DNA from: a virus
DNA length: 33,874 nt
Direction: 5' to 3' (one strand)
IMG/VR virus record: IMGVR_UViG_3300033141_006335
Span: 1-33,874 of that record
Of the stretch, positions 1-33,874 are shown piece after piece. Each line of letters begins with the position of its first letter. Position 1 is the first letter of the stretch. The notes under the pieces were generated by a model. That model did no database searches. It saw only the letters and a program-made list of their open reading frames with translations, and was not told where the DNA came from. Position numbers and translations under genes: made by a program.

Positions 1-3000
1 ATGGCCAAAGTATATTATAAGGATGTAGAAAATTTAGGATTAATACGTGTTGATAATCCAAGACGTAGATTTTTTAATATAAATAATAGAATTGATAAAT
101 TTTATCCACATTCTATAGAATTAAGTAAGTTAAAATTTAAAAAGATTAGTAATACAGAATATAAAACAATAACTGTTGAAGAAGTTTTATTAATAGAAGG
201 CATTGTTCCTCATGGTGCCCTGATAAAAGTTTATAAAGTTGAAAATAATGAAGATATTCCTTATTCAATTATATTTCCTTATAATAGTAGAGGAAATTTT
301 AAATTTAAATATATTTTAGGGTCAGAGCCCAAAACTATAAAATTAAAATTAACTTCATTATGGAATGAAAAATCTACTATTGATAATGAATATATATATT
401 ATGAATCTGACCCTGTGTATCTTAATATTATAAAAATAGAAAGATTAAATCCTCAACCTATTTATTATCAGGTATTTGAGATTTCTTATAGAGATTTTGT
501 TTTTACTGGAACATATAAAGCAAATGATAAATATTCTGGTGTTATAACAGATAATAATATACAAAATGATATTATTTATCGGGTAAATAATAAAAATACA
601 AAACATATTTGGGTAGTAAAAGCCACTAATTTAAATTTAGTTCTTAGTGACGATAACTTGATATCGGGTGTAACGGGTTATGATTATATTACTTTTGTAA
701 CATCAGATTTTATTATTGAAAAACAAGTTATTTCAGAGTTTACTGATAAAGTAAAATCTTTTTCTTATAGTTATTCGAATGAGTTTTTATCTGGTACAGG
801 TACTGTTGTAATAAAAGATGTATATGGAAAATTAAAAAGTGAATATCAAAAAGTAGGAAATGAATTTAGATTAGTACAATCTGATTTAGCACATACAAAA
901 ATAGTATTTCAAGGGAAAATAGATAAAATAAAATTTATAAGTGATTATGGTCTGGAAACTGAAATACAATTAATTAATGAAGGTATAAAAATTGTTGAAG
1001 AAAAAATAAATTTTTCTATAAATGGCCAATATAATGGAGATGTAATAAGAGAATTAGCTGTAAAGGCAGGATTTAAAAATAAAAATATTTATGTACCAAC
1101 AGGACATTTATATGTAGGAGCACGGTCTTTTTCTAATACGGCAATGTTGGATGTTATAAAAGAAATTTTATTTGTAGAAGGCTGGTCAATAGAAGTAGGT
1201 TATGAATTAGATGTGGATGTTAATTTTCCTGAAATATTTTTAAAGATTTATGAAGATGATAATTTTCCTGCTCCTGTTTTAACTTATAATCAAAGTCAAT
1301 TTAAAGTTTTGAAATATATTGAGTCAGCAGAGAATATAGTAAATAAGATTAGGGTGAAAGGAGTTCTACCAAAATTTACAGTAAGTGAAGATAGTTTAGA
1401 AAATTTAACATTATCTAAACAAGAGGGTGAAGGAGTAAAATTATGTACTAATGAAGAGTTTAATGTTGAAGCTAATAGATTTGGTTTAGATGCTCCTATT
1501 TATTTTTTAGTATATAGTGATAAATTAGATTGGAATAATTTAAAAGGTGAATATAAAATTCAATTTAAATATAAACGATTTGGTTCGTCATCTGTATGGA
1601 CCTTAGCAGAACGTACATTGCATTTATATCCCGATGAAAATTGTGGCGTTGCTATTTTAGAATTATATTTATATCATTTAACTTCTGATTCAGTCTTATA
1701 TTACATGATTTCTTTAGAGGATAATTATGGTAATACTTTTAAAGTTGATTGGACAGAAATATCATTATCAGCTGAATTATCAGTTTTATATCAAAGAGAA
1801 GTAATATCACGAAGAGGAATATCTTATTCTAATACAAAAAAATTAGCTTCCGTTGATTTGTCTTGGAATTTTAGTAGAATGGATTCTCCAAGAGTAGGTA
1901 ATAAAAATGTGTTATGGAGCAGTTATAGGATTACAGGAAATATTGTTGAGTCGGCAGAATGGTATGTAAAAATTCCCTTAAATGGAGATACGGGAAATTG
2001 TGAGTTATCATCACTGATTATAGATTTGGACCAGGCTACATCATATTCAAAGGATGCTGTTGTTTTAAAAAATTGTTCTATACAACAGGCCCCATCAACA
2101 ATTGTATCTTATAGTGATTGGATATATTTTTATGAATTACATTCACCTTCAGTCCCTGGAAAACGTGTTGATTCAGTGATTTTCAAGGTATATCTACCAT
2201 TTCCAATATCAATTGATTCTGATATTATTGTAAGATTTAATATTTGGGGTAAAGAAGTTTATGTGGCTGAAGAAGCAGAAGACCCTACCAAAACATTAGT
2301 AGAATATTCAAATGAAGATTCGATAAAAGAATATGGGTTAAAAGATGGTGGTATAATACTTAGTCCTTATATTACTACTAAATTACAGTCGGAAATAATA
2401 GCTAAACGGTATGTGGAAGGATTAAAAGAACCCATAATACAGCTTGAGTTTACTACTCCAATGTTAATTGATGCACATAAAAATATTTTATTTAGATTAA
2501 TTGATACATTATCTGGGTTTGACTCTGAGGTCTGGATAACTGAGTTTGAAAATAATTTAACTTTTTCAGAAGGTGAATTTAGATGTTCTACTGTGTTTAC
2601 AGGGGTAAAAGCACGAAGAATTATAGTACCTGATGAAGAATTTACAGGAAAAACAAAAGAAATTATTGTACGTCCAGAATTAAGTATTCAACCTTTAGAT
2701 ATTGCAGAGTATTTAAAAAATATATTCATACAAGATTTAGGAGTTATTTTCATTGGTACTATTGCTGCCAGAGTATATAGAGGATTATATAGAATTAAAA
2801 TAGAAGGAAGTGATGTGGAAATAAAAAATGTTTTTTCCTTGATTTCTGATACCCTTAATGCAAATGATAGAGTATTGATAGGTAAATTAGATTCGACTAA
2901 TTTTGTTATTCTGCAAAAAATAGAAACTACTCCACAAGAATTAAATATAGCTGAATTTAATGGATTTAGTCCTGAACTTATTTATATTATTAAAAATATT

Positions 3001-4104
3001 ATTCCTGATGAAGATAATATTTATAATTTATCTGATTATACATCTGAAAAACCACAAACAGAATTAATGATTGTAGATAGTAATCCAAAGGAAGGTTCTA
3101 ATGATATAAATATTTATGGTTCTATAAAGGTTATGTTTAATATGAAAGCATCTGTGATGAATCCAGATAATATATATATTAGACATGCACAATCAAAAGA
3201 AAAGTTATCAAATGTTGAATTAATAGAAGATGAATTATGGGCTGTTGAATATGAAGGATTAAGATTTGTAGGTAGTAAATATAATGTACGTATTTTAAAT
3301 CCTGAAAATATTATACCAGGTACACAAATTGAGCTTGTATTTTTAGAAAAATCTTTATATGGTATTTTTTTAGTTTATAAGACGTTGGCAAAAATAGAAT
3401 GTTTAGAAGAACTTTTAAATAAAGAATTAAAATTAACATTTAATGTTCCTGAATATGATGCTATGTCTGATTTTGGATATAAACAGGAATTTTGGGTAGA
3501 TGAAAATAATCCAACTACTTTAAGTGTGGATGGTAATACTTATGATTTTGAGGTATTAGAAGTTTCTGATGATGGTGTAATACTAAAGGTTATTGATAAT
3601 CAAACAGGAGAAGAAATGATACAAACATATGATACAACAATTAATAATACTGGTCAAATTGGAAATATGAAATTTACTATAGACCAGATTGATAATGGAA
3701 GTGTGTTAATAACAGGAGAAGCAGTTAGTGAGCGAGATGTTACTACTACCTCTTATTTGGCAGTAGGAGATTTTTATATCTATTATAATTATAAGATAGA
3801 AGTTATAGAAGTTGCATCGACCTACACAAAATTTAATATATATGATGCTACCACAGGTGAATTATTGCATACTACAAGTAATATTAGCGAAGGCGGGTAT
3901 GAAGTATTTCAAGATTTAAAGATTGTGGTAATGGATATTGAGAGTAATACAGTAAAGATACAATTAAGCTTATTTAGTGACATAAATGACCCAAAAGTTA
4001 GTGTTATTAGTGATGACTTGCTATTATTAGAATTTGGTGATAATATTATATTAGATACGGAGTCATCTGAAAATATAGATAATTATGAAATAAGTGAGAG
4101 CTAA
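1..4104 (+). CDS. Large phage tail/baseplate protein with hub-like and Ig-like domains
   Basis: This is probably a structural protein of the tail tip or baseplate, judged from its length (1367 aa), its beta-rich composition and the lysis genes that follow. Residues about 235-480 resemble the tail-hub fold of the phage late-control D/gp27 type: a beta-rich stretch, then a segment with TAMLDVIKEIL and GWSIEVGYEL. Residues about 1020-1105 look like a bacterial Ig-like (Big_5) domain (VDSNPKEGSNDINIYGSIKV, then FNMKASVMNPDNI). Residues 1174-1240 and 1253-1322 appear to be two copies of one beta module, each with a TGE turn. No membrane segment is visible. The ATG is the first base of the window, so no ribosome site can be seen and the true start could lie further upstream. 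The tail role is well supported; the exact component is inferred. Confidence 0.72.
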   Translation: MAKVYYKDVENLGLIRVDNPRRRFFNINNRIDKFYPHSIELSKLKFKKISNTEYKTITVEEVLLIEGIVPHGALIKVYKVENNEDIPYSIIFPYNSRGNFKFKYILGSEPKTIKLKLTSLWNEKSTIDNEYIYYESDPVYLNIIKIERLNPQPIYYQVFEISYRDFVFTGTYKANDKYSGVITDNNIQNDIIYRVNNKNTKHIWVVKATNLNLVLSDDNLISGVTGYDYITFVTSDFIIEKQVISEFTDKVKSFSYSYSNEFLSGTGTVVIKDVYGKLKSEYQKVGNEFRLVQSDLAHTKIVFQGKIDKIKFISDYGLETEIQLINEGIKIVEEKINFSINGQYNGDVIRELAVKAGFKNKNIYVPTGHLYVGARSFSNTAMLDVIKEILFVEGWSIEVGYELDVDVNFPEIFLKIYEDDNFPAPVLTYNQSQFKVLKYIESAENIVNKIRVKGVLPKFTVSEDSLENLTLSKQEGEGVKLCTNEEFNVEANRFGLDAPIYFLVYSDKLDWNNLKGEYKIQFKYKRFGSSSVWTLAERTLHLYPDENCGVAILELYLYHLTSDSVLYYMISLEDNYGNTFKVDWTEISLSAELSVLYQREVISRRGISYSNTKKLASVDLSWNFSRMDSPRVGNKNVLWSSYRITGNIVESAEWYVKIPLNGDTGNCELSSLIIDLDQATSYSKDAVVLKNCSIQQAPSTIVSYSDWIYFYELHSPSVPGKRVDSVIFKVYLPFPISIDSDIIVRFNIWGKEVYVAEEAEDPTKTLVEYSNEDSIKEYGLKDGGIILSPYITTKLQSEIIAKRYVEGLKEPIIQLEFTTPMLIDAHKNILFRLIDTLSGFDSEVWITEFENNLTFSEGEFRCSTVFTGVKARRIIVPDEEFTGKTKEIIVRPELSIQPLDIAEYLKNIFIQDLGVIFIGTIAARVYRGLYRIKIEGSDVEIKNVFSLISDTLNANDRVLIGKLDSTNFVILQKIETTPQELNIAEFNGFSPELIYIIKNIIPDEDNIYNLSDYTSEKPQTELMIVDSNPKEGSNDINIYGSIKVMFNMKASVMNPDNIYIRHAQSKEKLSNVELIEDELWAVEYEGLRFVGSKYNVRILNPENIIPGTQIELVFLEKSLYGIFLVYKTLAKIECLEELLNKELKLTFNVPEYDAMSDFGYKQEFWVDENNPTTLSVDGNTYDFEVLEVSDDGVILKVIDNQTGEEMIQTYDTTINNTGQIGNMKFTIDQIDNGSVLITGEAVSERDVTTTSYLAVGDFYIYYNYKIEVIEVASTYTKFNIYDATTGELLHTTSNISEGGYEVFQDLKIVVMDIESNTVKIQLSLFSDINDPKVSVISDDLLLLEFGDNIILDTESSENIDNYEISES

Positions 4105-4123
4105 AGAAAGGAGGATAAGTTTT

Positions 4124-4552
4124 ATGATACTTTTGTCGGAAGCGTTAGATAATGACTTATTTCGTTTAACTTTAAGTATTTTGGAATCTACAATGTTTGA
4201 TTTATATCTAATTAATTTTAAAAAAAATGAAGAAGATGTTAATCCTGATGATTTTTTTAGGTTAAGTCCAAGATTGCGAATTATATTATGTGATTTGGCT
4301 TTATATTGTTGGAAAAATTTTAGAAAGAAAATCGTTATTACGTCTATGTTTAGAGATTCAGGCATTCATTCAACAGGAAGAGCAGCAGATATTAGGTCAA
4401 GGATATTCAAAAATAGTCAATGCAGAAAAATTACAAATTATCTAAATAAAAAATATAAGTATGGTTTAGGATATGATGGCAAAGAACATGATACTTGTAT
4501 ATGGCATGATGTTGGAAAAGGAAAGCATTTTCATATACAGGTTAAAAAATAA
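4124..4552 (+). CDS. Peptidase M15-like cell-wall hydrolase (probable endolysin)
   Basis: A small (142 aa) protein with the zinc-site pattern of M15 (D-Ala-D-Ala carboxypeptidase/VanY/L-Ala-D-Glu peptidase) enzymes: H82 and D89 in HSTGRAAD, then H135 and H137 in KHFHIQV. These enzymes cut peptide stems of peptidoglycan, so this is probably the phage lysin or a tail-associated wall hydrolase. Its place just upstream of two holin-like membrane proteins favours the lysin role. No signal peptide is visible, as expected for a holin-dependent lysin. The start is placed at ATG 4124, because AAAGGAGG at 4107-4114 sits at correct spacing; an in-frame GTG at 4094 overlaps the tail gene and lacks such a site. 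The N-terminal 70 residues are helical and not recognised. Confidence 0.8.
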   Translation: MILLSEALDNDLFRLTLSILESTMFDLYLINFKKNEEDVNPDDFFRLSPRLRIILCDLALYCWKNFRKKIVITSMFRDSGIHSTGRAADIRSRIFKNSQCRKITNYLNKKYKYGLGYDGKEHDTCIWHDVGKGKHFHIQVKK

Positions 4553-4570: not shown

Positions 4571-4870
4571 ATGACACCACCATCTGGTAGAGATAATGGA
4601 CTAACTGTTGGTATTATAGATAAAATACATGATGAAATAAAAGAACATAAACAAGAATGTACACAATATTTAGAAAATAAGTTTGTACCTAAAGAAGAAT
4701 TTTCTAAGTTTTTGCGTAAAGAATTTACTCCTGTTATAGTTACATTGGATAGAATAAAGATGTGGTTGAAAATTAATAGTGTTTTGATATTCTTATCCCC
4801 TTTAATGTATTATTTATATCCTAAAATAGAAAGTGTATTACGTTCTGCAATAAGTAGTATGATAAAATAA
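4571..4870 (+). CDS. Small coiled-coil membrane protein, possible holin accessory
   Basis: A 99-aa protein with a charged helical N-terminal half (IIDKIHDEIKEHK), then one hydrophobic segment near residues 69-85 (INSVLIFLSPLMYYLYP) and a short C-terminal helix. This layout of coiled coil plus one C-terminal membrane span resembles XhlA/BhlA-type lysis accessory proteins, but I see no specific motif. It has a strong ribosome site (AAAGGAGG, 4557-4564) and sits between the peptidase and the LLH-type holin, so a part in lysis is likely by context. A tail-associated membrane protein is the main alternative. Confidence 0.55.
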   Translation: MTPPSGRDNGLTVGIIDKIHDEIKEHKQECTQYLENKFVPKEEFSKFLRKEFTPVIVTLDRIKMWLKINSVLIFLSPLMYYLYPKIESVLRSAISSMIK

Positions 4871-4887: not shown

Positions 4888-5367
4888 ATGTTAAGGGTTG
4901 TATTAGCTGTATGGTTTATTTTAATGCCATTTATATGTTATGCGGCAGTAGATGTGACTGGTTCAAGTCTTGATTGGCGGGCTTGGGTTATCACAACAAT
5001 TTTTGGGTTTGTTAGTGTAATTATTTCTTTTTTAATTAAAGTTCTTGTTAGAAGAATAAATCAATGGTTAGAAAAGAAAGAAATGTTTGAGGATTTAAGA
5101 ATTACAGCAGAAAAAGAAAAATTATTAATTACAAAAATTGATTTAGTAATTGATGCAGTAGAAAAATGGGCTGAAAATCAGGTTAAATTTAAAAAATCCA
5201 AGCCCTCTTCGCCTGAAAAATTTGAAAAATTTATGAATATTGTTGCTACTGTGTTGGATAAAGCAGAATTAGATGAAATAGGAAAAGAGAAATTAGAAGC
5301 ATATTTAGAAGCAATACTTAATAAAAAAAAGCAATTTTCATCTGGGACATTGATGAACAAAAAATAA
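4888..5367 (+). CDS. LLH-type phage holin
   Basis: A 159-aa protein with a hydrophobic signal-like N-terminus (residues 1-19, ending in CYAA), a membrane segment at about 32-50 (VITTIFGFVSVIISFLIKVL), and a charged helical C-terminal half with AVEKWAENQ and a run of helices ending in ELDEIGKEKLEAYLEAIL. That C-terminal pattern matches the holin LLH (Phage_holin_6_1) family, mostly found in phages of Firmicutes. Holins form membrane lesions that release the lysin. The ribosome site is GGGAGGTAGG before ATG 4888. The frame closes 12 codons after an A8 run; a -1 shift there would add 73 residues (see the feature at 5325-5552). Confidence 0.72.
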   Translation: MLRVVLAVWFILMPFICYAAVDVTGSSLDWRAWVITTIFGFVSVIISFLIKVLVRRINQWLEKKEMFEDLRITAEKEKLLITKIDLVIDAVEKWAENQVKFKKSKPSSPEKFEKFMNIVATVLDKAELDEIGKEKLEAYLEAILNKKKQFSSGTLMNKK

Positions 5368-5552
5368 CTGAAGATTTAATTGATACTATAAATTCATCTG
5401 GGGTTTTGAAAACTCCAGATGATTTATATTTTTGGGAATATTTTACATATGTATTTAATAAGCTTTTTTTATATATAAATAATAAAAGTAAATTTTCTGA
5501 TAAAGAAATCTATAGATTTGCTGTATTATTTAAATGTTATTTTTTTGATTAA
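5325..5552 (+). other. Candidate -1 frameshift site and 73-codon extension of the holin
   Basis: At 5325-5331 the holin frame reads A AAA AAG, the classic bacterial -1 slippery heptamer, inside a run of eight A (5323-5330). Shifting there enters a frame open for 73 codons to TAA at 5550-5552. The product would continue KAIFIWDIDEQKITEDLIDT and end FKCYFFD, about 221 aa in all. The -1 frame has no ATG or credible ribosome site of its own, and its upstream stop is TAA at 5322-5324, so it can hardly be a separate gene. Six bases after the heptamer, TCATCTGG (5338-5345) is complementary to CCAGATGA (5415-5422), a possible stimulatory stem, although a local hairpin competes for the same partner. 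A one-base sequencing error or slippage in the A run is the alternative. Confidence 0.5.
5395..5421 (+). repeat. Strong hairpin downstream of the holin stop
   Basis: CATCTGG at 5395-5401 pairs with CCAGATG at 5415-5421, and the stem extends through a G-T wobble and GTTT/AAAC to a three-base loop, about 12 pairs. It is not followed by a clean T run, so it is not a convincing terminator. The left arm is part of TTCATCTGGG, which also occurs at 5337-5346 just after the slippery site, so two alternative pairings exist. Confidence 0.6.
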
Positions 5553-5616: not shown

Positions 5617-6006
5617 ATGAAAAGTAAAATTTTTATTTTTTTATTAATATGTTTTCTTTTTTTAAATAATTATGGAGTATGTAAGCAAAAATTAACAATT
5701 AGGAAAAAATTTGTAAAAAAGCATTTTGTGCCATCTAAGAATATTAGAAGATTAATTAAATTTCCTGATGTTTCTACAGGTATATTTTTTGATTTTAAAT
5801 TATCAAAGATACGAACTTCTATTAATTTTGAAATGTATGATAGGAAAGTAAAAATTGATTTAGTATTAGGAGATGATTTTATAGCTGTAGCTGTAGGAAA
5901 AAAATTAATTAGGATTTTTGAGATTGGTATAAATATATTTATGGGATATGATTTATATTATGATAAGCGATGTTATGGTATTGGAGTAACAATTATAAAC
6001 TTTTAA
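5617..6006 (+). CDS. Small secreted protein of unknown function
   Basis: Not recognised. This 129-aa protein starts with a typical export signal: MKSK, then a hydrophobic stretch (IFIFLLICFLFL, residues 5-16) and a polar stretch around residue 20. The residues before Cys22 (YGV) do not fit a lipobox, so a lipoprotein is unlikely. The mature part is basic and appears rich in beta strands (GIFFDFKLSK, then GINIFMGYDLYYD), ending in IINF. ATG 5617 is chosen because AAAGGAGG lies at 5601-5608; a GTG at 5608 overlaps that site. Next to the lysis genes it could be a spanin-like or envelope-interacting protein, but nothing in the sequence shows this. Confidence 0.6.
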   Translation: MKSKIFIFLLICFLFLNNYGVCKQKLTIRKKFVKKHFVPSKNIRRLIKFPDVSTGIFFDFKLSKIRTSINFEMYDRKVKIDLVLGDDFIAVAVGKKLIRIFEIGINIFMGYDLYYDKRCYGIGVTIINF

Positions 6007-6035: not shown

Positions 6036-6064
6036 TTGACTTGTTTTTAAAAATATAATATAAT
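6036..6064 (+). promoter_or_regulatory. Promoter P1, sigma-70/sigma-A consensus
   Basis: TTGACT at 6036-6041 and TATAAT at 6059-6064 are separated by 17 bases, a near-perfect housekeeping promoter; an overlapping TATAAT at 6054-6059 is too close to the -35 box. Transcription would begin near 6071, about 26 bases before ATG 6097. It probably drives the small membrane genes and the replication block downstream, as no other consensus promoter was seen before 26270. Confidence 0.85.
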
Positions 6065-6096: not shown

Positions 6097-6240
6097 ATGA
6101 GTAAAAATATAATATTTATAATAGGTACTTTGACGATATTTATTGGGTTACAGTTTTGGTATTCCAGTTTTTTGATTTTTGGTATTATTTTTATGTATGT
6201 TGGGTATCTTCTTTTAGAGATTTGGGTGGAATATCCATAA
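6097..6240 (+). CDS. 47-aa double-span membrane microprotein
   Basis: A very short gene directly behind promoter P1 with a strong ribosome site (GAAGGAGGG, 6083-6091) and ATG 6097. The product is almost wholly hydrophobic, with two spans at about residues 5-20 and 22-41 (IIFIIGTLTIFIGL, then FLIFGIIFMYVGYLLL), and ends WVEYP. It is followed at once by the ribosome site of the next gene. Function unknown. As a first-transcribed inner-membrane protein it could act in superinfection exclusion or host modification, which is inference only. Confidence 0.7.
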   Translation: MSKNIIFIIGTLTIFIGLQFWYSSFLIFGIIFMYVGYLLLEIWVEYP

Positions 6241-7093: not shown

Positions 7094-8509
7094 TTGATAA
7101 AGATTACAGTAACAGAATCATATTGTTATATTAATCCATTTTCAATAAAAAGAAAAGTTTATCAAAAATTAGTGGCAGCTTTTTCTGTTCCTTATAAAAA
7201 TGTAGATTTTATACGTAGAAAATATCCAGATTTTCCTGATAGATATAATTTTATAGATACCTATAAATTTGGAACTGGTTTATTAATGTATGTTTGTAAA
7301 AAATTAGAAAAGATGAAACAGCCTTATATATTAATAAATGAAATAAAAAAATCAAAATTAAAATTTACAGAACCACATTTAAAAACAAAAATATTACGAG
7401 AAGACCAATTGAATGTTATACGTATTATGCAGAAAAAAGAACGTGGAATATGTTCTTTAGCTACTGCTTTTGGTAAGACTTTGACATTTGCTGGATTTAT
7501 TAGTACCTTACCTAAAACAGCAAAAGTATTATATTTAATTCATAGGGATAATTTATTTCGTCAAACGAGGCGGGTATGGGAAAAAGAACTTAATGAACCA
7601 ATTGGTTCATTAAGGAATCGGGATTTCAAACTTGAGCGAATAAATTTATGTACAATACAGACGTTTGTGAGTAAAAGATATGCAAAATTTTTTAAAGTAT
7701 TGTTGCAAAATGTTGATGTAATACTTTTTGATGAAGTACATTGGTTTAATACAAGTTGTTTTAGGTTATTAATGAAAACTAATTGTAGATATAGATTTGG
7801 GTTTTCTGGTACAGTAAAAAGAAATGAAATGAACTATAGAAAACTAATAGCATGGGCTGGTCCTGTGTTAAAGGTTATTTCAATTGAAGACCAGATAGTA
7901 AATGGAAAAGCTCCAATTCCACAAATTTATGTTCATAAAACGTATTGTGATAAGCCTGAATTAATTGATTTGCGCATGGGATATGATTATTATATAAAAA
8001 ATAATAAAGAACGTGATAAAAAATTATTCAAGATTTTAAAAAATCGTAGAGTGCCTTGTCTGATTTTTGTAGAGCGCATTCATCATTGTAGGGAATTATT
8101 TTTAAAATTACTTAAAGTATTTCCGAAAGTTCCTATTAGATTTATTAGTTATGAAAGTTCTAAATTATTTAAAAATCTTGTATATAAAGAAGTTATAAAT
8201 AATGAAGTAGAAATTGTAGTATGTACTACTATTTGGGATGAAGGTGTTGATTTGCCACAGGTACAACATCTTATTGATTTATCTATGACAGAATCATATA
8301 TTAGGTGTATGCAACGTTTAGGTAGAGGAATGCGTTTATCTGGAAATACTAATAATAAACAGGAAACTGTCAGAATTGATATATTTTTAGAGCAAAGGGA
8401 TGAATATCTAAGGAAAAAGGATTATATAAAATATAAATATTATAAAAAATTAATAAAGAATTTAAAAAAACGAGGCGTAAAAGATTGTTTTTTAAAAATT
8501 ATTAAATAA
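7094..8509 (+). CDS. SF2 DNA helicase, UvsW-like
   Basis: A 471-aa superfamily 2 helicase. Motif I is ATAFGKT near residues 123-129, the DEAH-box equivalent is DEVH at 213-216, motif III is SGT at 238-240, and motif VI is QRLGRGMR near residue 390. The order and size match T4 UvsW and related phage helicases that unwind branched DNA and R-loops and promote recombination-dependent replication. The N-terminal about 100 residues are an accessory domain. The start is TTG 7094, three bases after the previous stop; the nearest ribosome-site candidate is a weak purine stretch in the end of that gene, so translation is probably coupled. A perfect 26-bp palindrome lies within the gene at 7589-7614. 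Confidence 0.88.
   Translation: MIKITVTESYCYINPFSIKRKVYQKLVAAFSVPYKNVDFIRRKYPDFPDRYNFIDTYKFGTGLLMYVCKKLEKMKQPYILINEIKKSKLKFTEPHLKTKILREDQLNVIRIMQKKERGICSLATAFGKTLTFAGFISTLPKTAKVLYLIHRDNLFRQTRRVWEKELNEPIGSLRNRDFKLERINLCTIQTFVSKRYAKFFKVLLQNVDVILFDEVHWFNTSCFRLLMKTNCRYRFGFSGTVKRNEMNYRKLIAWAGPVLKVISIEDQIVNGKAPIPQIYVHKTYCDKPELIDLRMGYDYYIKNNKERDKKLFKILKNRRVPCLIFVERIHHCRELFLKLLKVFPKVPIRFISYESSKLFKNLVYKEVINNEVEIVVCTTIWDEGVDLPQVQHLIDLSMTESYIRCMQRLGRGMRLSGNTNNKQETVRIDIFLEQRDEYLRKKDYIKYKYYKKLIKNLKKRGVKDCFLKIIK
7589..7614. repeat. 26-bp perfect palindrome inside the SF2 helicase gene
   Basis: The sequence from CTTAATGAACC to GGTTCATTAAG, centred on AATT between 7601 and 7602, is identical to its own reverse complement over all 26 bases. 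The flanking bases (A at 7588, G at 7615) do not pair. It encodes LNEPIGSL in the helicase. Such a length is not expected by chance in 34 kb, so it may be an operator, a recombination or origin site, or a cruciform-forming element. Confidence 0.85.
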
Positions 8510-12819: not shown

Positions 12820-15315
12820 ATGGAAAATTTACATGATAACTGCAAATATTGTAAGTTATATACGCATTCTACTGCACATTTTATCACTGGTAAGTGTTAT
12901 GCCCCTTCTTTACAGGATGTAAAATTGATGATTTTAAGTGAGAGTCCTATAAATGGCAGGGTTATGTCAGGTCCTTCAGAAAGACTTTTAAAAAGTATTT
13001 TAAAAAAATGTGGTATATTAAAATATGCTTATGTAACAAATATTCTTAAATGTCCAACACTGTATAATAAAAGACCATCTATAAAACAAGTTAATTTTTG
13101 TCGTCCTTTATTAGATAAAGAAATTCAAAAGATTAATCCAAAAGTAATTGTATGTATGGGTAATATAGTTGTTAAATCTATTTTAGGTACTTCAGGTGTA
13201 GCACAATTAAGAGGTCAAGCATTTCCTATTTTTTCAACTGGTTTTTGTGTTCCTACTTATCATTTATCAGCAGCACAGCGAAATGAAAATTTTATTGAAA
13301 AAATTGTTGAAGATATGTTAATTGCTAAGCAAATTATTCTTCAAAAACAAAATAAGTTATCTAAAACTAAAGTTCATATTGCTGGTTCTTTTTTGGATTT
13401 AAAGAAATTTAAAAAACTTTTGTTAAAACAGTCAAAATTAAGTTTCGATATTGAAACAAATACAAGTAATTGTTGGAATGAATCTGGTAAAATCTTGTGT
13501 TGTGGATTCTCCTTTAAAAAAGGATTAGCATATGTATTACCTTCTGAAGGACCTGATTATACTGAAAAGGAATTTATACGAGTATTAAAAGAAATTCTGG
13601 AATCTAATGTACAGAAAATTGCACATAATGCTAAATTTGATTGTCTATTTCCTCGTGTCAGATATGGTATATATGTTAAAAATCTATATTTTGATACAAT
13701 GTTAGCACATTATCTTTTGAATGAGATACGAGGAACTCATGGGTTAAAAAAATTGTGTAGAGTTTATACATCAATGGAAGCTTATGAGAGTAAAATGGTT
13801 CTTGCTCAACAGATATATGGCAAAAGTGATGCTTTTTCAAAAATAAATCCTATTGATTTATATGAATATAATGGAGGTGATTGTGATTGTACTTATAGAT
13901 TATATAAAGAATTTAGTAAACAATTGAATAAAAATAAGCGTAGAAAGAAATTACATGATTTTTTGATTATTCCATTAATACATTTATTAATGGATATAGA
14001 ACACAAGGGTATTTATGTAAGTAAATTAAAGTTACAGAGATTAAAAAAATTATTTAAAAAGAAAATAGAAGATGCAAAAAATTTTTTATATTCTATTTCT
14101 GAAGTTAAAGAAGCTCAAAAACAATTAAATTATGAAGTATTAAGGAAAGCATTTATAACATATCAAAAGAATTTAGAAGATTATAAGAAAGGTATCAGAA
14201 AAAATGTTCCAAAATTTCCAAAAGTAAAAGAAGTTGTTTTTAATTTAAAATCTAATAAACATTTAAGTTTATTATTATATAATGTAATAGGATTAGAAGT
14301 AATTAAAAAAACAAAGAAAACTGGTTCTCCTTCTGTTGATAGTGAAGTTTTAGAAAAATTTGAAAACTCACATATTTTTTGTAAGAAATTAATAGAATAT
14401 AGAAAATTAGAAAAGTTATATTCTACATATATTGAAAATTTAGATAATTATATAGCTAAAGATGGTAGGGTACATCCTGATTATTATATTCATGGCACAG
14501 TTACAGGACGTTTATCGGCACGTAATCCTAATGTATTGAATATTCCACGAGTAGATAGTGGTGGCAAAGAAATAAGAGATTTATATTGTGCTCCAAAAGG
14601 ATATATATTGATAGAAGCTGATTATGCTCAGATAGAGATGCGAGTTATGGCATGGTATGCGAATGATAAAACATTAATAAAATCAATAAATTCAGGTATT
14701 GATATTCATAGAGCGGTAGCTGCTGAAGTATTTAATTGTGAACCTGAAGAGGTAACAAAAAAGCAGAGACAAAGTATAAAAAGTCTGAATTTTGGATTAA
14801 TATATGGTAGAGGAGCAAAATCAATATCGGAAGAATTGGGATGGTCTATGAAAAAAACACAAAAATTTATACAAAAATATTTTGAGAGGTTTTCTGGCAT
14901 TGAATATTTTATCAATCGTCAAAAAAGATTTGCAAAAAAGTATGGATATGTGGAAAGTTTTTTTGGTAGAGTCAGACATTTGCCTAACATTAATAGTCCC
15001 GATATGTATTTAAGAGCAGAAGCAGAAAGACAGGCAGTAAATGCTCCTATTCAGAGTACAGCGTCAGATTTAACTTTATTTTCTGCAATAAAATTGAATA
15101 ATTATTTTAAGAAAAATAATATTGATGCTCATATTATTAATATTATTTATGATTCAATATTGACAGAATGTAGAGAAGATTTAGTAGATGAAGTTATAAA
15201 AATAAAAAAGAAAATTATGGAAACTTGGAATTTTTCTTGGGTAAAAACTAAGATTGATACGGATATTAAAGTTGGTAAATTTTGGGGAAGTTTAGAAAAG
15301 GTAAAGGAGGTTTAA
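12820..15315 (+). CDS. Family 4 uracil-DNA glycosylase fused to family A DNA polymerase
   Basis: An 831-aa replicative polymerase with an extra N-terminal repair domain. Residues 1-170 match family 4 (iron-sulfur) uracil-DNA glycosylases: C8 and C11, C78 and C94 at the family spacing (YVTNILKC and NFCRPLL), and PTYHLSAAQRN with the conserved His. The usual GEAPG motif is SESPING, so the active site is altered. Residues 205-370 are a 3'-5' exonuclease (D210 and E212 in DIET; NAKFD; YNGGD). Residues about 530-831 are the PolA core: motif A DYAQIEMR at 601, motif B RQSIKSLNFGLIYG at 650-663, and motif C IYDSI at 776-780, where the usual HDE is YDS. There is no 5' nuclease domain; a separate gene at 17470 supplies it. 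SPO1-type phages are known to carry a related fusion. Confidence 0.92.
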   Translation: MENLHDNCKYCKLYTHSTAHFITGKCYAPSLQDVKLMILSESPINGRVMSGPSERLLKSILKKCGILKYAYVTNILKCPTLYNKRPSIKQVNFCRPLLDKEIQKINPKVIVCMGNIVVKSILGTSGVAQLRGQAFPIFSTGFCVPTYHLSAAQRNENFIEKIVEDMLIAKQIILQKQNKLSKTKVHIAGSFLDLKKFKKLLLKQSKLSFDIETNTSNCWNESGKILCCGFSFKKGLAYVLPSEGPDYTEKEFIRVLKEILESNVQKIAHNAKFDCLFPRVRYGIYVKNLYFDTMLAHYLLNEIRGTHGLKKLCRVYTSMEAYESKMVLAQQIYGKSDAFSKINPIDLYEYNGGDCDCTYRLYKEFSKQLNKNKRRKKLHDFLIIPLIHLLMDIEHKGIYVSKLKLQRLKKLFKKKIEDAKNFLYSISEVKEAQKQLNYEVLRKAFITYQKNLEDYKKGIRKNVPKFPKVKEVVFNLKSNKHLSLLLYNVIGLEVIKKTKKTGSPSVDSEVLEKFENSHIFCKKLIEYRKLEKLYSTYIENLDNYIAKDGRVHPDYYIHGTVTGRLSARNPNVLNIPRVDSGGKEIRDLYCAPKGYILIEADYAQIEMRVMAWYANDKTLIKSINSGIDIHRAVAAEVFNCEPEEVTKKQRQSIKSLNFGLIYGRGAKSISEELGWSMKKTQKFIQKYFERFSGIEYFINRQKRFAKKYGYVESFFGRVRHLPNINSPDMYLRAEAERQAVNAPIQSTASDLTLFSAIKLNNYFKKNNIDAHIINIIYDSILTECREDLVDEVIKIKKKIMETWNFSWVKTKIDTDIKVGKFWGSLEKVKEV

Positions 15316-17492: not shown

Positions 17493-18423
17493 TGGTAATA
17501 ATTTAGCTATTCGTGCTTATTTTGGATATAGTTATCAGATTAATACTATAGAAGTTGGTATGTTATATGGTTTTTTAGATATGTTGCGAAAGTATATTAA
17601 AAAATTTAAGCCTGATTATGTGTTTGCTGTTTTTGATGGCGGCCATAGCAGAAGAAGGAAGAAGATATATAAACAATATAAAGTAAAAGAACGAACAATG
17701 GAAGATAAAATAAGATTAGCCATAATAATTGAATATATTGATATAATAAAAAGTATATTGCCTTATTTTAAAATTAAACCTATTTTTTTAAAAGGTGTAG
17801 AAGGTGATGATTTAATTTATACATTATGTAAAATATATAAAAAAGTAAAAAGGGTAGTAGTATCTTCTGATATTGATTTTTTACAATTACTTAAATCATT
17901 TAATTTATCAATATATTTACCTACTAAAGAAATATATGTGAATAAAAAAAATTTTGTTGAAATTATGGGTGTATATCCTATTGAATTTTTATTTATGAGA
18001 GCTGTTGTTGGCGATAGAAGTGATAGAATTGATGGAATTTCTGGTATAGGTGAAAAAACAATAAAAAAGATAATTGAAAGAAATAGGGATAAGTTTGCTG
18101 ATTCAGGAATATATAAATCAATAGAAAATTTAAAAGTTTTTTTGAATAATTTAGAATTAATAAATAAAAGAGAGCAATTATTATTAAATCAGGAAGAAAA
18201 GATTTATAGGAATATTCAATTAATGGATTTATCTAAGGAATATAAGGAAAATTTAAAAGATATTGTAAAAAAAGAGATTAAGAAAAATAAAAAATTTTTA
18301 AAACCATTAGTAAAAAAAGAAATAAAAGAAAAGAAGATTATGCAATTTTTTTATAAATATTGTTTATTTGCTAAAATTAATGATTTTTCAGAATTTATTA
18401 GACCTTTTAAAAGATTAAAATGA
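17470..18423 (+). CDS. 5'-3' exonuclease / flap nuclease (FEN, T4 RNase H type)
   Basis: A 317-aa nuclease of the PolI 5'-nuclease family, which removes RNA primers and flaps. Metal-binding residues are visible: D8 (LIIDGNN), D56 (VFAVFDGG), E111-G-D113-D114, D134 and D136 (VSSDIDF), and GDRSDRI at 181-187, then the helix-hairpin-helix ISGIGEKTIKK. It supplies the activity absent from the polymerase at 12820. The start is GTG 17470 (ATG 17479 possible), inside the end of the recombinase gene. The stop overlaps the next start by ATGA. The Lys-rich C-terminus (about 250-317) is not recognised. Confidence 0.88.
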   Translation: MKKMLIIDGNNLAIRAYFGYSYQINTIEVGMLYGFLDMLRKYIKKFKPDYVFAVFDGGHSRRRKKIYKQYKVKERTMEDKIRLAIIIEYIDIIKSILPYFKIKPIFLKGVEGDDLIYTLCKIYKKVKRVVVSSDIDFLQLLKSFNLSIYLPTKEIYVNKKNFVEIMGVYPIEFLFMRAVVGDRSDRIDGISGIGEKTIKKIIERNRDKFADSGIYKSIENLKVFLNNLELINKREQLLLNQEEKIYRNIQLMDLSKEYKENLKDIVKKEIKKNKKFLKPLVKKEIKEKKIMQFFYKYCLFAKINDFSEFIRPFKRLK

Positions 18424-19400
18424 AACAGAAGGAGTTATTACCAGCTAAATACAGATTACGATTATTATTTAATAAAGAAAAGATTAATACTTTAAAAGAA
18501 AATGAAAAGTTAATTAATAGATATAAAAATAAGATTGAATATTATAATAATATAATGATTGATATTACTAAAATTAAACCATATCTATATTTTTGTGAAA
18601 CTAAAGAAGATAAACAGTTTTGGACTGCTTTTGTTCATTTAACAACATCTTTACCTTTTAAAAGCGCAGTAGGTCGGCAAATAAAAATATTTGTAAAAGA
18701 TAAAAATACAGATTATATTTTAGGAATGGTTCAGCTTACAAGCGATTTGGCACAATTACGTGTCAGAGATACATATATTGGATGGTCTTATAAAGATAAA
18801 TGGGAACATATTAATAATATTTTAAATATACAAATTTGTGTACCTACAAGAAGATATTCTTATTTATTAATAGGCAAATTATTGGTATATTGTTTATTTT
18901 CTATTGATATTGTACAATATTATTTAAATAAATATAATGATTATTTAGTTGGTCTTACTACTACATCATTATATGGAAAAAGTTCAATGTATAATAGGAT
19001 ACCATTTTTAAAATATTTAGGTTTATCTGATGGAATGAGTGCAGTGTATATATCAAATGAAGAATGGAAGAAGATATTAAAAGAATATTATAAGTATTTT
19101 CCTAAAACAAATACAAAAAGATTAGCTCCTGTTAAATATCAAATAATAGATAAACTTGCTTCTTATTATAAACGACATTTTAATAAAGAATTTCCTTATG
19201 AATACCAAAAAATTGAGTATAGGAGAGGAGTTTATTTTGGTTATTTATGTAAAAATGGAAAAGATTTTTTGAATGGTAAATGTAATGTTCCTTTTCATAA
19301 TGTATTTACTGTATATGATTCTTTTATAAATTGGAAAAACAGATGGTTTAATCCACGATATGAAAAGTATAAAAAGGAGGATTTAAATATTTATGGATAA
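18420..19400 (+). CDS. DruA-like protein (DUF4338 family)
   Basis: A 326-aa protein that I recognise as a homologue of DruA (DUF4338), a component of the Druantia bacterial anti-phage systems. Family landmarks are in order: SAVGRQIKIF (about 80-89), YILGMVQLTSDLAQLRVRD then TYIGWSYKDK (about 98-127), NNILNIQICVPTRRYSYLLI then GKLLVYCLFS (about 131-160), and the hallmark GLTTTSLYGKSSMYNRIPFL then KYLGLSDGM (about 178-206). Here it is encoded by the phage, overlaps the 5' nuclease start-to-stop (ATGA) and the SbcD-like gene by 8 bases, and no other Druantia component is next to it. A role in DNA processing or replication fits the neighbours; a counter-defence role is possible. The biochemical activity is not evident from sequence. 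Confidence 0.75.
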   Translation: MKQKELLPAKYRLRLLFNKEKINTLKENEKLINRYKNKIEYYNNIMIDITKIKPYLYFCETKEDKQFWTAFVHLTTSLPFKSAVGRQIKIFVKDKNTDYILGMVQLTSDLAQLRVRDTYIGWSYKDKWEHINNILNIQICVPTRRYSYLLIGKLLVYCLFSIDIVQYYLNKYNDYLVGLTTTSLYGKSSMYNRIPFLKYLGLSDGMSAVYISNEEWKKILKEYYKYFPKTNTKRLAPVKYQIIDKLASYYKRHFNKEFPYEYQKIEYRRGVYFGYLCKNGKDFLNGKCNVPFHNVFTVYDSFINWKNRWFNPRYEKYKKEDLNIYG

Positions 19401-26269: not shown

Positions 26270-26297
26270 TTGACTTTTTTAAAATATGTGTTATAAT
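26270..26297 (+). promoter_or_regulatory. Promoter P2, extended sigma-70/sigma-A consensus
   Basis: TTGACT at 26270-26275, 16 bases, then TATAAT at 26292-26297, preceded by TGT to give an extended -10. It lies between the terminase stop and the Lys-rich gene at 26330. TTGACTTTTTTAAAA and TTATAATTATA here are shared word for word with P3 at 32134, marking a phage promoter family. Confidence 0.87.
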
Positions 26298-28282: not shown

Positions 28283-28789
28283 GTGATTATATTAGGAATA
28301 GACCCTGGAAAGAGTGGAGCAGTGGCAGTTTATGATAATAATAAAATATATACAGTATATTGTCCTGATACACAAAGAGAGATGGCTGATTTATTAAAAC
28401 GTATTAAAGGAAACAATAAAAATATAAAAGCATATATAGAAAAAGTAAGTGCTTTTAGAAAGAAAAAATCAAAATGTCCTGTATGTAAAAAAGATATATA
28501 TATTTCAGAAGGCTCAAAATCTATCTGGACTTTCTCTGGGAATTATGCATCCTGGAAAATGGGTTTAATAATGTTAGATATTCCTTTTGAAGAGATACCT
28601 CCAGGTAGATGGCAGAAATTATTGGGGTGCCTTCCTAAAAATAGACAAGCAAGAAAAAATGAAGTAAAAAGACAAATGCAAAATCTTTATCCTTATATAA
28701 AAGTAACTTTAAAAAATGCAGATGCCTTAGCAATTTTAACAGTAATGATAAAAGAATTTAATAAGGCAAAGCAAAAATCATTATTATGA
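28283..28789 (+). CDS. RuvC-like Holliday junction resolvase
   Basis: A 168-aa RNase H-fold nuclease. The RuvC motif is clear: GIDPGKSG with D7, AYIEKV with E53, and NADALAI with D147, at the family's spacing. It should cut four-way junctions before packaging, the T4 gp49 role. A C66-P-V-C69 pair with no second visible pair is unusual. The start is GTG 28283 after a GAGGTG ribosome site. It overlaps by ATGA with a 54-aa zinc-ribbon gene and lies one gene from a second RuvC-fold protein. Confidence 0.82.
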   Translation: MIILGIDPGKSGAVAVYDNNKIYTVYCPDTQREMADLLKRIKGNNKNIKAYIEKVSAFRKKKSKCPVCKKDIYISEGSKSIWTFSGNYASWKMGLIMLDIPFEEIPPGRWQKLLGCLPKNRQARKNEVKRQMQNLYPYIKVTLKNADALAILTVMIKEFNKAKQKSLL

Positions 28790-28950
28790 ATTGTGAATAT
28801 TGTGAACATAAAATGAATATAAAATTTATTGATATAATATTTAAGAAAGAAATATGGAAATGTAATAATTGTAAATTAATTAAAATTTATCCTTTACAAA
28901 ATCGTTCTTTAGAGTTTATAATAAAATCGTTAAAAAGTGATGAAAAATGA
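28786..28950 (+). CDS. 54-aa zinc-ribbon microprotein
   Basis: A tiny gene between the two RuvC-fold genes, overlapping each by ATGA, which argues strongly that it is real. The product starts MNCEYCEHKM and continues to KEIWKCNNCK: two Cys-x-x-Cys knuckles, 21 residues between them, a complete minimal zinc ribbon. The remaining residues are basic. It may be a nucleic-acid-binding partner of one of the RuvC-like proteins. Function unknown. Confidence 0.72.
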   Translation: MNCEYCEHKMNIKFIDIIFKKEIWKCNNCKLIKIYPLQNRSLEFIIKSLKSDEK

Positions 28951-29673: not shown

Positions 29674-29737
29674 TTAAATTTTAATATATTTTTAAATTTT
29701 ATATATTTATATCAATAAAATAATTTAAATATATAAA
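29674..29737. other. Block of nearly pure A and T between genes
   Basis: From 29674 to 29737 there is no G and only one C. Several -10-like words occur but no TTGACA-type -35 box. It could be an easily melted region or an upstream element of a phage-sigma promoter. I see no hairpin with GC pairs. Confidence 0.5.
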
Positions 29738-29750
29738 GGGGGGTGATTTT

Positions 29751-29878
29751 TTGTCAAAAATAGCTGTGGAAAAATATTACTAAAATTTGAAAAAGGAAAA
29801 TCTAAAGGATTTATTCTTTTAAACTATTGTAAATTAAAGCAAATAAATGATATAATAAAAAAGAAACAGGAGAGATGA
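29751..29878 (+). pseudogene. Frameshifted small gene remnant
   Basis: A strong ribosome site (AAGGGGGGTG, 29736-29745) precedes TTG 29751, but this frame stops after 10 codons at TAA 29781. The -1 frame stays open from about 29747 to TGA 29876-29878 and reads VKNSCGKILLKFEKGKSKGF then ILLNYCKLKQINDIIKKKQE. Adding one A to the run at 29756-29760 would join the two into a small protein of about 42 aa. It is either a decayed gene or a sequence error. Confidence 0.45.
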
Positions 29879-29882
29879 AAGA

Positions 29883-32133: not shown

Positions 32134-32161
32134 TTGACTTTTTTAAAAAATATATTATAAT
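32134..32161 (+). promoter_or_regulatory. Promoter P3, sigma-70/sigma-A consensus
   Basis: TTGACT at 32134-32139 and TATAAT at 32156-32161, 16 bases apart, in the gap after the double zinc-ribbon gene. It is nearly the same as P2 (shared TTGACTTTTTTAAAA and TTATAATTATA). It drives the three small genes at 32202-33578. The AGATAAAGGAGG ribosome leader follows within 20 bases of the expected start point. Confidence 0.87.
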
Positions 32162-33594: not shown

Positions 33595-33771
33595 GTGAAG
33601 TGTGAAATTTGTGAAAAGAAAATAAAGAAAAGAGCTGTTAGAATAGAGATTCCCCTGTCGCTCAGCGGCTTAACTGAGGTTCAATTTTCTGGGGCGGGTT
33701 ACCCCGTAAGGGGAAAAATAAACTCTCCCTCGCCTGTTGCTCATGTGGGCGGGTGCGAGATAAGGAGGTGA
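33595..33771 (+). CDS. Candidate 58-aa leader protein crossing a GC-rich island
   Basis: An open frame from GTG 33595 to TGA 33769-33771. It starts MKCEICEKKIKKRAVRIEI (one Cys-x-x-Cys knuckle) and continues through GC-rich DNA as IPLSLSGLTEVQFSGAGYP and later HVGGCEIRR. The stop lies inside the ribosome site of the next gene, five bases before its ATG, a layout typical of translational coupling. The ribosome site is weak (GAAAG), and an open frame is easier to find by chance in GC-rich sequence. If it is not translated, this stretch is a structured non-coding leader. Confidence 0.45.
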   Translation: MKCEICEKKIKKRAVRIEIPLSLSGLTEVQFSGAGYPVRGKINSPSPVAHVGGCEIRR

Positions 33772-33785
33772 TAACATGAGCAACA
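33729..33785 (+). promoter_or_regulatory. Start-codon-sequestering stem with competing stems
   Basis: TGTTGCTCATGT (33735-33746) is exactly complementary to ACATGAGCAACA (33774-33785), which contains the ATG of the next gene (33776). The 27-base loop holds its ribosome site AAGGAGGTG. Two shorter stems would compete: CTCGC/GCGAG (33729-33733 with 33755-33759) and CGCC/GGCG (33731-33734 with 33748-33751). This is the form of a translational switch: a ribosome finishing the upstream ORF, or a ligand, could open the start site. It matches no riboswitch class I know. Confidence 0.6.
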
Positions 33786-33874
33786 AGATAATAAAAATAG
33801 AAAGTAGTGTAAAAAAAGGAAGTTGGGCAGATTTTGCCCAAAAACTGCCCCCTACTCCTGCTGTAGAGCAGGAA
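33776..33874 (+). CDS. Start of a gene cut by the window edge
   Basis: An open frame begins at ATG 33776 behind AAGGAGGTG and runs to the window end without a stop (33 codons): MSNKIIKIESSVKKGSWADF then AQKLPPTPAVEQE. Codon use is much less AT-biased than in genes to the left. Two hairpins lie in it: TTGGGCA/TGCCCAA (33823-33841) and TCCTGCT/AGCAGGA (33856-33873). Function cannot be judged from the fragment. Confidence 0.6.
   Translation, partial: MSNKIIKIESSVKKGSWADFAQKLPPTPAVEQE

Follow-up and report, generated by a model that had tools for sequence, protein, structure and literature searches.

Gene content of the window and its lysis region

The analysed DNA comprised positions 1-33,874 of IMG/VR virus record IMGVR_UViG_3300033141_006335, and this whole stretch of 33,874 bases, with 25% GC, is called the window below. 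All annotated genes listed for it were on the + strand. A DnaB-like helicase, a primase, a family A polymerase, a UvsX-like recombinase and an SbcCD-like pair were present, a predicted replication gene set which marks a tailed phage, and the closest IMG/VR polymerases were only about 33% identical to that of the window. The family A DNA polymerase (12820-15315) carried an N-terminal uracil-DNA-glycosylase-superfamily domain (PF03167, residues 33-165), and a homologue of the Druantia defence protein DruA (18420-19400; PF14236, 1.3e-19) was located within the phage replication module. Sigma-70-like promoters composed of TTGACT or TTTACA and TATAAT (11/12) were observed at 6036-6064, 26270-26297, 28893-28922 and 32134-32161, directly 5' of the ORFs at 6097, 26330, 28947 and 32202, respectively. 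The record end (33600-33874) seemed to be higher in G+C than the rest and contained several hairpins, and the last ORF ran open off the end.

The features of the lysis region and of the frame break are given below.

1-4104, + strand: tail-like protein of 1,367 aa, 5' of the endolysin-like ORF 4094-4552 and the holin region
4094-4552, + strand: upstream ORF, probable endolysin, with an H/D-rich peptidase-like motif seen by eye and without a significant family match
4571-4870, + strand: ORF for a small membrane protein with a C-terminal hydrophobic segment (topology by eye)
4888-5367, + strand: 0-frame ORF, holin-like, 159 aa, with the C-terminus QFSSGTLMNKK-stop
5323-5330, + strand: A8 run read from the sequence, candidate slippage or indel site
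5325-5366, + strand: overlap, open in the holin frame as well as in the -1 frame, inside which the frame switch must fall
5331-5552, + strand: -1 frame extension, 73 codons plus stop, with no start codon that has a Shine-Dalgarno (SD) sequence
5394-5422, + strand: 13-bp hairpin with loop UGA, resembling an intrinsic terminator, with TTTATATTTTT (5423-5433) directly after it; located in the extension frame

ORF 4094-4552 had no Pfam or NCBIfam match, and it hit phrog_10777, a family of unknown function, at E=0.0045. No family match was obtained for ORF 4571-4870 in PHROG, Pfam or NCBIfam, and it is possibly the second membrane protein of the lysis cassette. After the extension, the next gene, preceded by an SD, starts at 5620 and is also on the + strand.

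The holin-like ORF was preceded by a strong SD (-12.8 kcal/mol), and its neighbour 4094-4552 was endolysin-like by eye only. The topology of its product, also judged by eye, consisted of an N-terminal hydrophobic or signal-like segment, one TM at about residues 31-50 and then a long helix. PF09682 (Phage_holin_6_1) aligned to residues 36-146 over profile positions 3-98 of 101, with E=0.0015 and 19.4 bits, under its cut-off of 24.9, and TIGR01673 (holin_LLH) aligned to residues 72-149 with E=0.38 and 11.2 bits against a cut-off of 34.75. As in LLH-family holins (PF09682/TIGR01673), an N-terminal TM is followed by a long helical region, and the weak match covers nearly the whole family length; the differences are the scores under both curated cut-offs, an additional hydrophobic segment at the N-terminus and a C-terminal extension that is out of frame. 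The profile match, which spans almost the entire profile, stops at residues 146-149, namely at the slip site, and in most LLH-holin ORFs of other genomes no more than about 30 residues follow the domain, which suggests that the short 159-aa product may be complete by itself and the extension an addition.

The A8 run and the open -1 frame

The holin frame reads AAT AAA AAA AAG CAA at the run, which places A AAA AAG in frame at 5325-5331. The original prediction had put this heptamer inside the A8 run as the slip site of a programmed -1 frameshift in the holin gene, and its position and frame were right. The same heptamer occurred in frame 24-26 times in the window, by gene list, and was not avoided, with 26 copies against 18.5 expected from synonymous shuffles. 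Long A runs behaved otherwise against the same kind of shuffles of the window's genes: A8 was found 5 times vs 18.6, A9 not at all vs 9.7, and runs of at least 10 not at all vs 11.2, while A7 was in slight excess. Avoidance of this kind points to selection against transcriptional or replication slippage (PMC1088944), and in the window it fits a cost of slippage or indels at A runs of at least 8, not ribosomal shifting. With these long runs strongly avoided and copies of A AAA AAG common and under no avoidance, run length is the more telling of the two features. The record has 66 A runs and 17 T runs of 7-8 bases, and the remaining 8-base runs were within intact ORFs.

A TAA at 5322-5324 closes the -1 frame, which is open again from 5325 up to the TAA whose last base is 5552. 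In dinucleotide shuffles, 73 open codons in the given frame appeared at a fraction of 0.0002, and none of 1,568 off-frame 73-codon stretches within the window's genes was open or scored above -3 bits. The codon score (LLR) of the extension was 39-54 bits, the 39 bits being the score over the nearer wrong phase and within the range of the window's real genes (median 46). When the parts before and after the hairpin were scored separately, both were coding-like, and no decay was seen apart from the single break. Codon statistics thus show that the -1 frame codes, or once coded, for protein. The claim of a 73-codon frame with no start of its own was therefore confirmed: no start codon in it has an SD. 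TTG at 5406 lies inside the hairpin, and its anti-SD pairing is -0.9 kcal/mol, where most of the genes checked reach -11 to -13; translation coupling at this TTG was rejected for want of an SD. The extension had no family match in PHROG, Pfam or NCBIfam, and AlphaFold2 run on the single sequence gave three helices in an all-helical model whose low confidence (pLDDT 60) made it unsuitable for a fold search.

Codon usage did not locate the frame switch at the A8 run. The change point was spread over 5339-5357, with A8 about 5 bits under the best position, and this is soft evidence resting on a dozen codons.

In a scan of the whole record, the extension was the only above-threshold coding-like stretch lacking a usable start, and the other unlisted coding-like stretches were complete small ORFs with starts. 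One of the candidates for a second broken gene (28790-28946) was rejected as an ordinary overlapping ORF with a start at 28787. At 29735-29882, an SD-like G6 is followed by a TTG ORF of just 10 codons, and the neighbouring -1 frame is open and startless for about 48 codons to 29879; its coding score was ambiguous (-1.3 / 6.5 bits), and it is possibly a second frame break.

The hairpin at 5394-5422

The sequence TCATCTGG occurs at 5338 and 5394 and CCAGATGA at 5415, with no other copies in the window. The hairpin formed by the copies at 5394 and 5415 ranked first in the terminator scan, with the most pairs among the terminator-like sites listed, and had the lowest energy among the hairpins of at least 9 bp found in the window. 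Hairpins of at least 11 bp numbered 2 in the window vs 0.07 in shuffles, and the MFE z of the hairpin region was -4.25. The second strongest hairpin of the window was a perfect 26-bp palindrome at 7589-7614, CTTAATGAACCAATTGGTTCATTAAG, in the UvsW-like helicase gene, which could be a protein-binding site.

The element at 5394-5433 has a GC-containing stem and a U-rich tract near a gene end, as intrinsic terminators do, and it begins 26 nt after the 0-frame stop. Because of the T-rich tract after it and its start 62 nt 3' of the slip site (last base 5331), outside the usual spacer, the hairpin looks like an intrinsic terminator and not a frameshift stimulator. The original prediction had called on this strong local hairpin and also on a long-range pairing of 5338-5345 with 5415-5422. 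The hairpin can form as described, with 13 bp, but its placement is wrong for a stimulator. The complementary copies for the long-range pairing are present as well, but when the pairing was enforced the energy was -13.8 kcal/mol, about 12 worse than the -26.2 of the unconstrained fold, which contains the local hairpin, and it was rejected on energy.

Interpretation of the frame break

Two coding-like frames abut at this locus, with no independent start for the second and no stimulator of programmed ribosomal frameshifting (PRF), and from this we infer a former single gene and an indel. In our judgement, held with somewhat better than even confidence, a single holin-like gene is interrupted by a frame break equal to the loss of one base, through mutation or consensus error. 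Its coding sequence would once have run through the present -1 frame, to about 220 codons, and the missing base would fall somewhere in 5322-5366, the A8 run being the spot there most open to mutation and error. Either the sampled phage would have undergone a replication-slippage mutation recently, or the consensus would carry a homopolymer error. Because the holin-like domain lies entirely upstream of the break, the 159-aa product with its 11-residue tail may still be a working holin, and the C-terminal helical extension would be lost or made at a low level.

The broken gene is favoured by an extension that is coding-like throughout with no SD-preceded start, by the missing PRF stimulators and by the diffuse change point at 5339-5357, the pattern expected from a generic indel. 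A survey that covered 206,991 prokaryotic frame transitions attributed its unclustered orphans to overlaps (33%) or to sequencing errors/indels (67%) (PMC3711429), and the prior for a broken gene was set by this attribution. When phage SPP1 was resequenced, several comparable one-base frame errors disappeared, among them one that fused two ORFs (PMC6316719). Against the broken gene, no other clearly frame-broken gene was found in the 33.9-kb record despite its many runs of 7-8, and the extension is without decay beyond the single break. A homopolymer sequencing error had been named as the plain alternative to programmed shifting; an indel does explain the two frames at least as well, but the consensus is not generally error-prone, since the other 8-base runs are in intact ORFs and no other gene is clearly broken. 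In addition, a base lost from A8 itself would make the true run the sole A9 of the window, and the avoidance of A9 (0 vs 9.7 expected) counts against this simplest form of the error explanation.

Searches for relatives were negative, and the absence of any homologue with a fused or a split frame in the viral contigs or the phage collection fits the broken gene. Viral contigs searched with the holin, the extension, the endolysin-like protein, the terminase, the DNA polymerase and the tail protein yielded no relative of either the holin or the extension, and neither did an alignment search with the polymerase in viral and genome contigs. The lysis-region proteins found nothing by tblastn in 164 fetched loci, nor was anything close to the lysis genes present, by protein or DNA, in an annotated phage collection. 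A pattern scan for an independent isolate over a range of A-run lengths also returned none; records very near the window's own may be excluded from these searches. Searches in PDB and Rfam gave chance-level matches only.

A -1 PRF at A AAA AAG as in dnaX, by which one gene would give two holin forms and the time of lysis would be tuned, was the original prediction, and we regard it as improbable. A canonical in-frame X XXY YYZ heptamer (A AAA AAG, 5325-5331) marks the 5' edge of the region where both frames are open, the extension is coding-like and startless, and the holin-like domain stops right at the heptamer, a natural spot for an optional tail. However, a stem-loop or pseudoknot about 5-9 nt 3' and an internal SD about 10 nt upstream were both absent, which leaves the heptamer as the sole positive mark: the best upstream anti-SD duplex was -0.7 kcal/mol, whereas most of the starts checked gave -11 to -13, the 61 bases of 5332-5392 folded like shuffles (z -0.1), and the strong hairpin is too far off and the long-range pairing far weaker. 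The heptamer is commonplace in the window, and the switch was not put there by codon usage. A heptamer at the domain end with a long -1 frame was seen in 0 of 23 LLH-holin loci, all from one class of bacterial genomes and distant relatives at best, and no precedent for PRF in a holin was found in the literature searched. The prediction that programmed shifting times lysis was thus not supported. The E. coli dnaX gene shares the identical in-frame heptamer and a -1 shift that changes the C-terminus, but the present gene is without an SD-like upstream stimulator, a correctly spaced hairpin or homologues found, and the dnaX shift shortens the product whereas a shift here would lengthen it. Lambda gpG/gpGT, T3/T7 gene 10 and gp17.1* of Listeria PSA and SPP1 are likewise phage genes with an optional out-of-frame C-terminal extension, but these genes encode tail or capsid proteins and their shift sites are conserved or proven, while the gene here is of lysis type, with a candidate shift and no relatives found. 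Transcriptional slippage is the best functional rival, unlikely as it is: RNA polymerase would add one A at the A8 run in some transcripts, so that a minority of mRNAs would encode the long form and most the 159-aa holin. On A runs RNA polymerase usually errs by insertion, the more so, and steeply, the longer the run (PMC5574713), an eight-A run gave about a tenth full-length product from human apoB (PMC1088944), no ribosomal stimulator is necessary, and the avoidance of A8 and longer runs in the window suggests a cost. Slippage is expected at A/T runs of about 8-9 or more at a junction (PMC1088944, PMC3711429), and A8 is at the low edge of this range, nine being the commonest threshold (PMC1088944); moreover, the avoidance of long runs may equally come from replication slippage, and other A8 runs sit in intact ORFs. 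In T. thermophilus dnaX, IS elements and the Buchnera/Blochmannia rescue (A8-A9), an A-rich homopolymer is likewise at the junction, one added A joins the frames and the AT-rich genome avoids long A runs, but here the run is just A8, and no relative that shares it was found.

Two further readings have a still smaller chance than programmed shifting. Phase variation would mean that replication slippage at the A run switches the population between a short (A8) and a long holin. Homopolymers are a known device for this (PMC3711429), one is present in the coding overlap and the extension seems intact, but eight As are short for a contingency locus, phase variation has been described mostly for surface and modification genes, and no second record with the other state was found in the pattern scan. 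It is just as doubtful that the true gene end is 5367, with the hairpin 5394-5422 as its terminator and the downstream frame as a remnant of another gene or separately started at TTG 5406. The terminator-like hairpin and T-tract do follow the stop by 26 nt, and the LLH-type domain is already complete; against this stand the coding-like signal on both sides of the hairpin, the placement of TTG 5406 in the hairpin with no SD (-0.9 kcal/mol), and the next gene (5620), which keeps the same direction and has an SD. Least probable of all, and very unlikely, is a frameshift-gated attenuator in the lysis cassette, where the frame at A8 would decide transcription. Ribosomes halting at 5367 would leave the 5394-5433 hairpin free to terminate transcription, while ribosomes that translate through it in the -1 frame, or on slipped transcripts, would suppress the terminator, so that the long holin would be made together with the product of the next gene (5620).

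The present case is a single orphan, and an indel explains it at least as well as a built-in frameshift. As a general lesson, in a phage of 25% GC the run length flags a candidate better than the heptamer. To our knowledge, a recoded holin in a tailed phage would be the first, and if the shift is real it would be a new way of setting the lysis clock.
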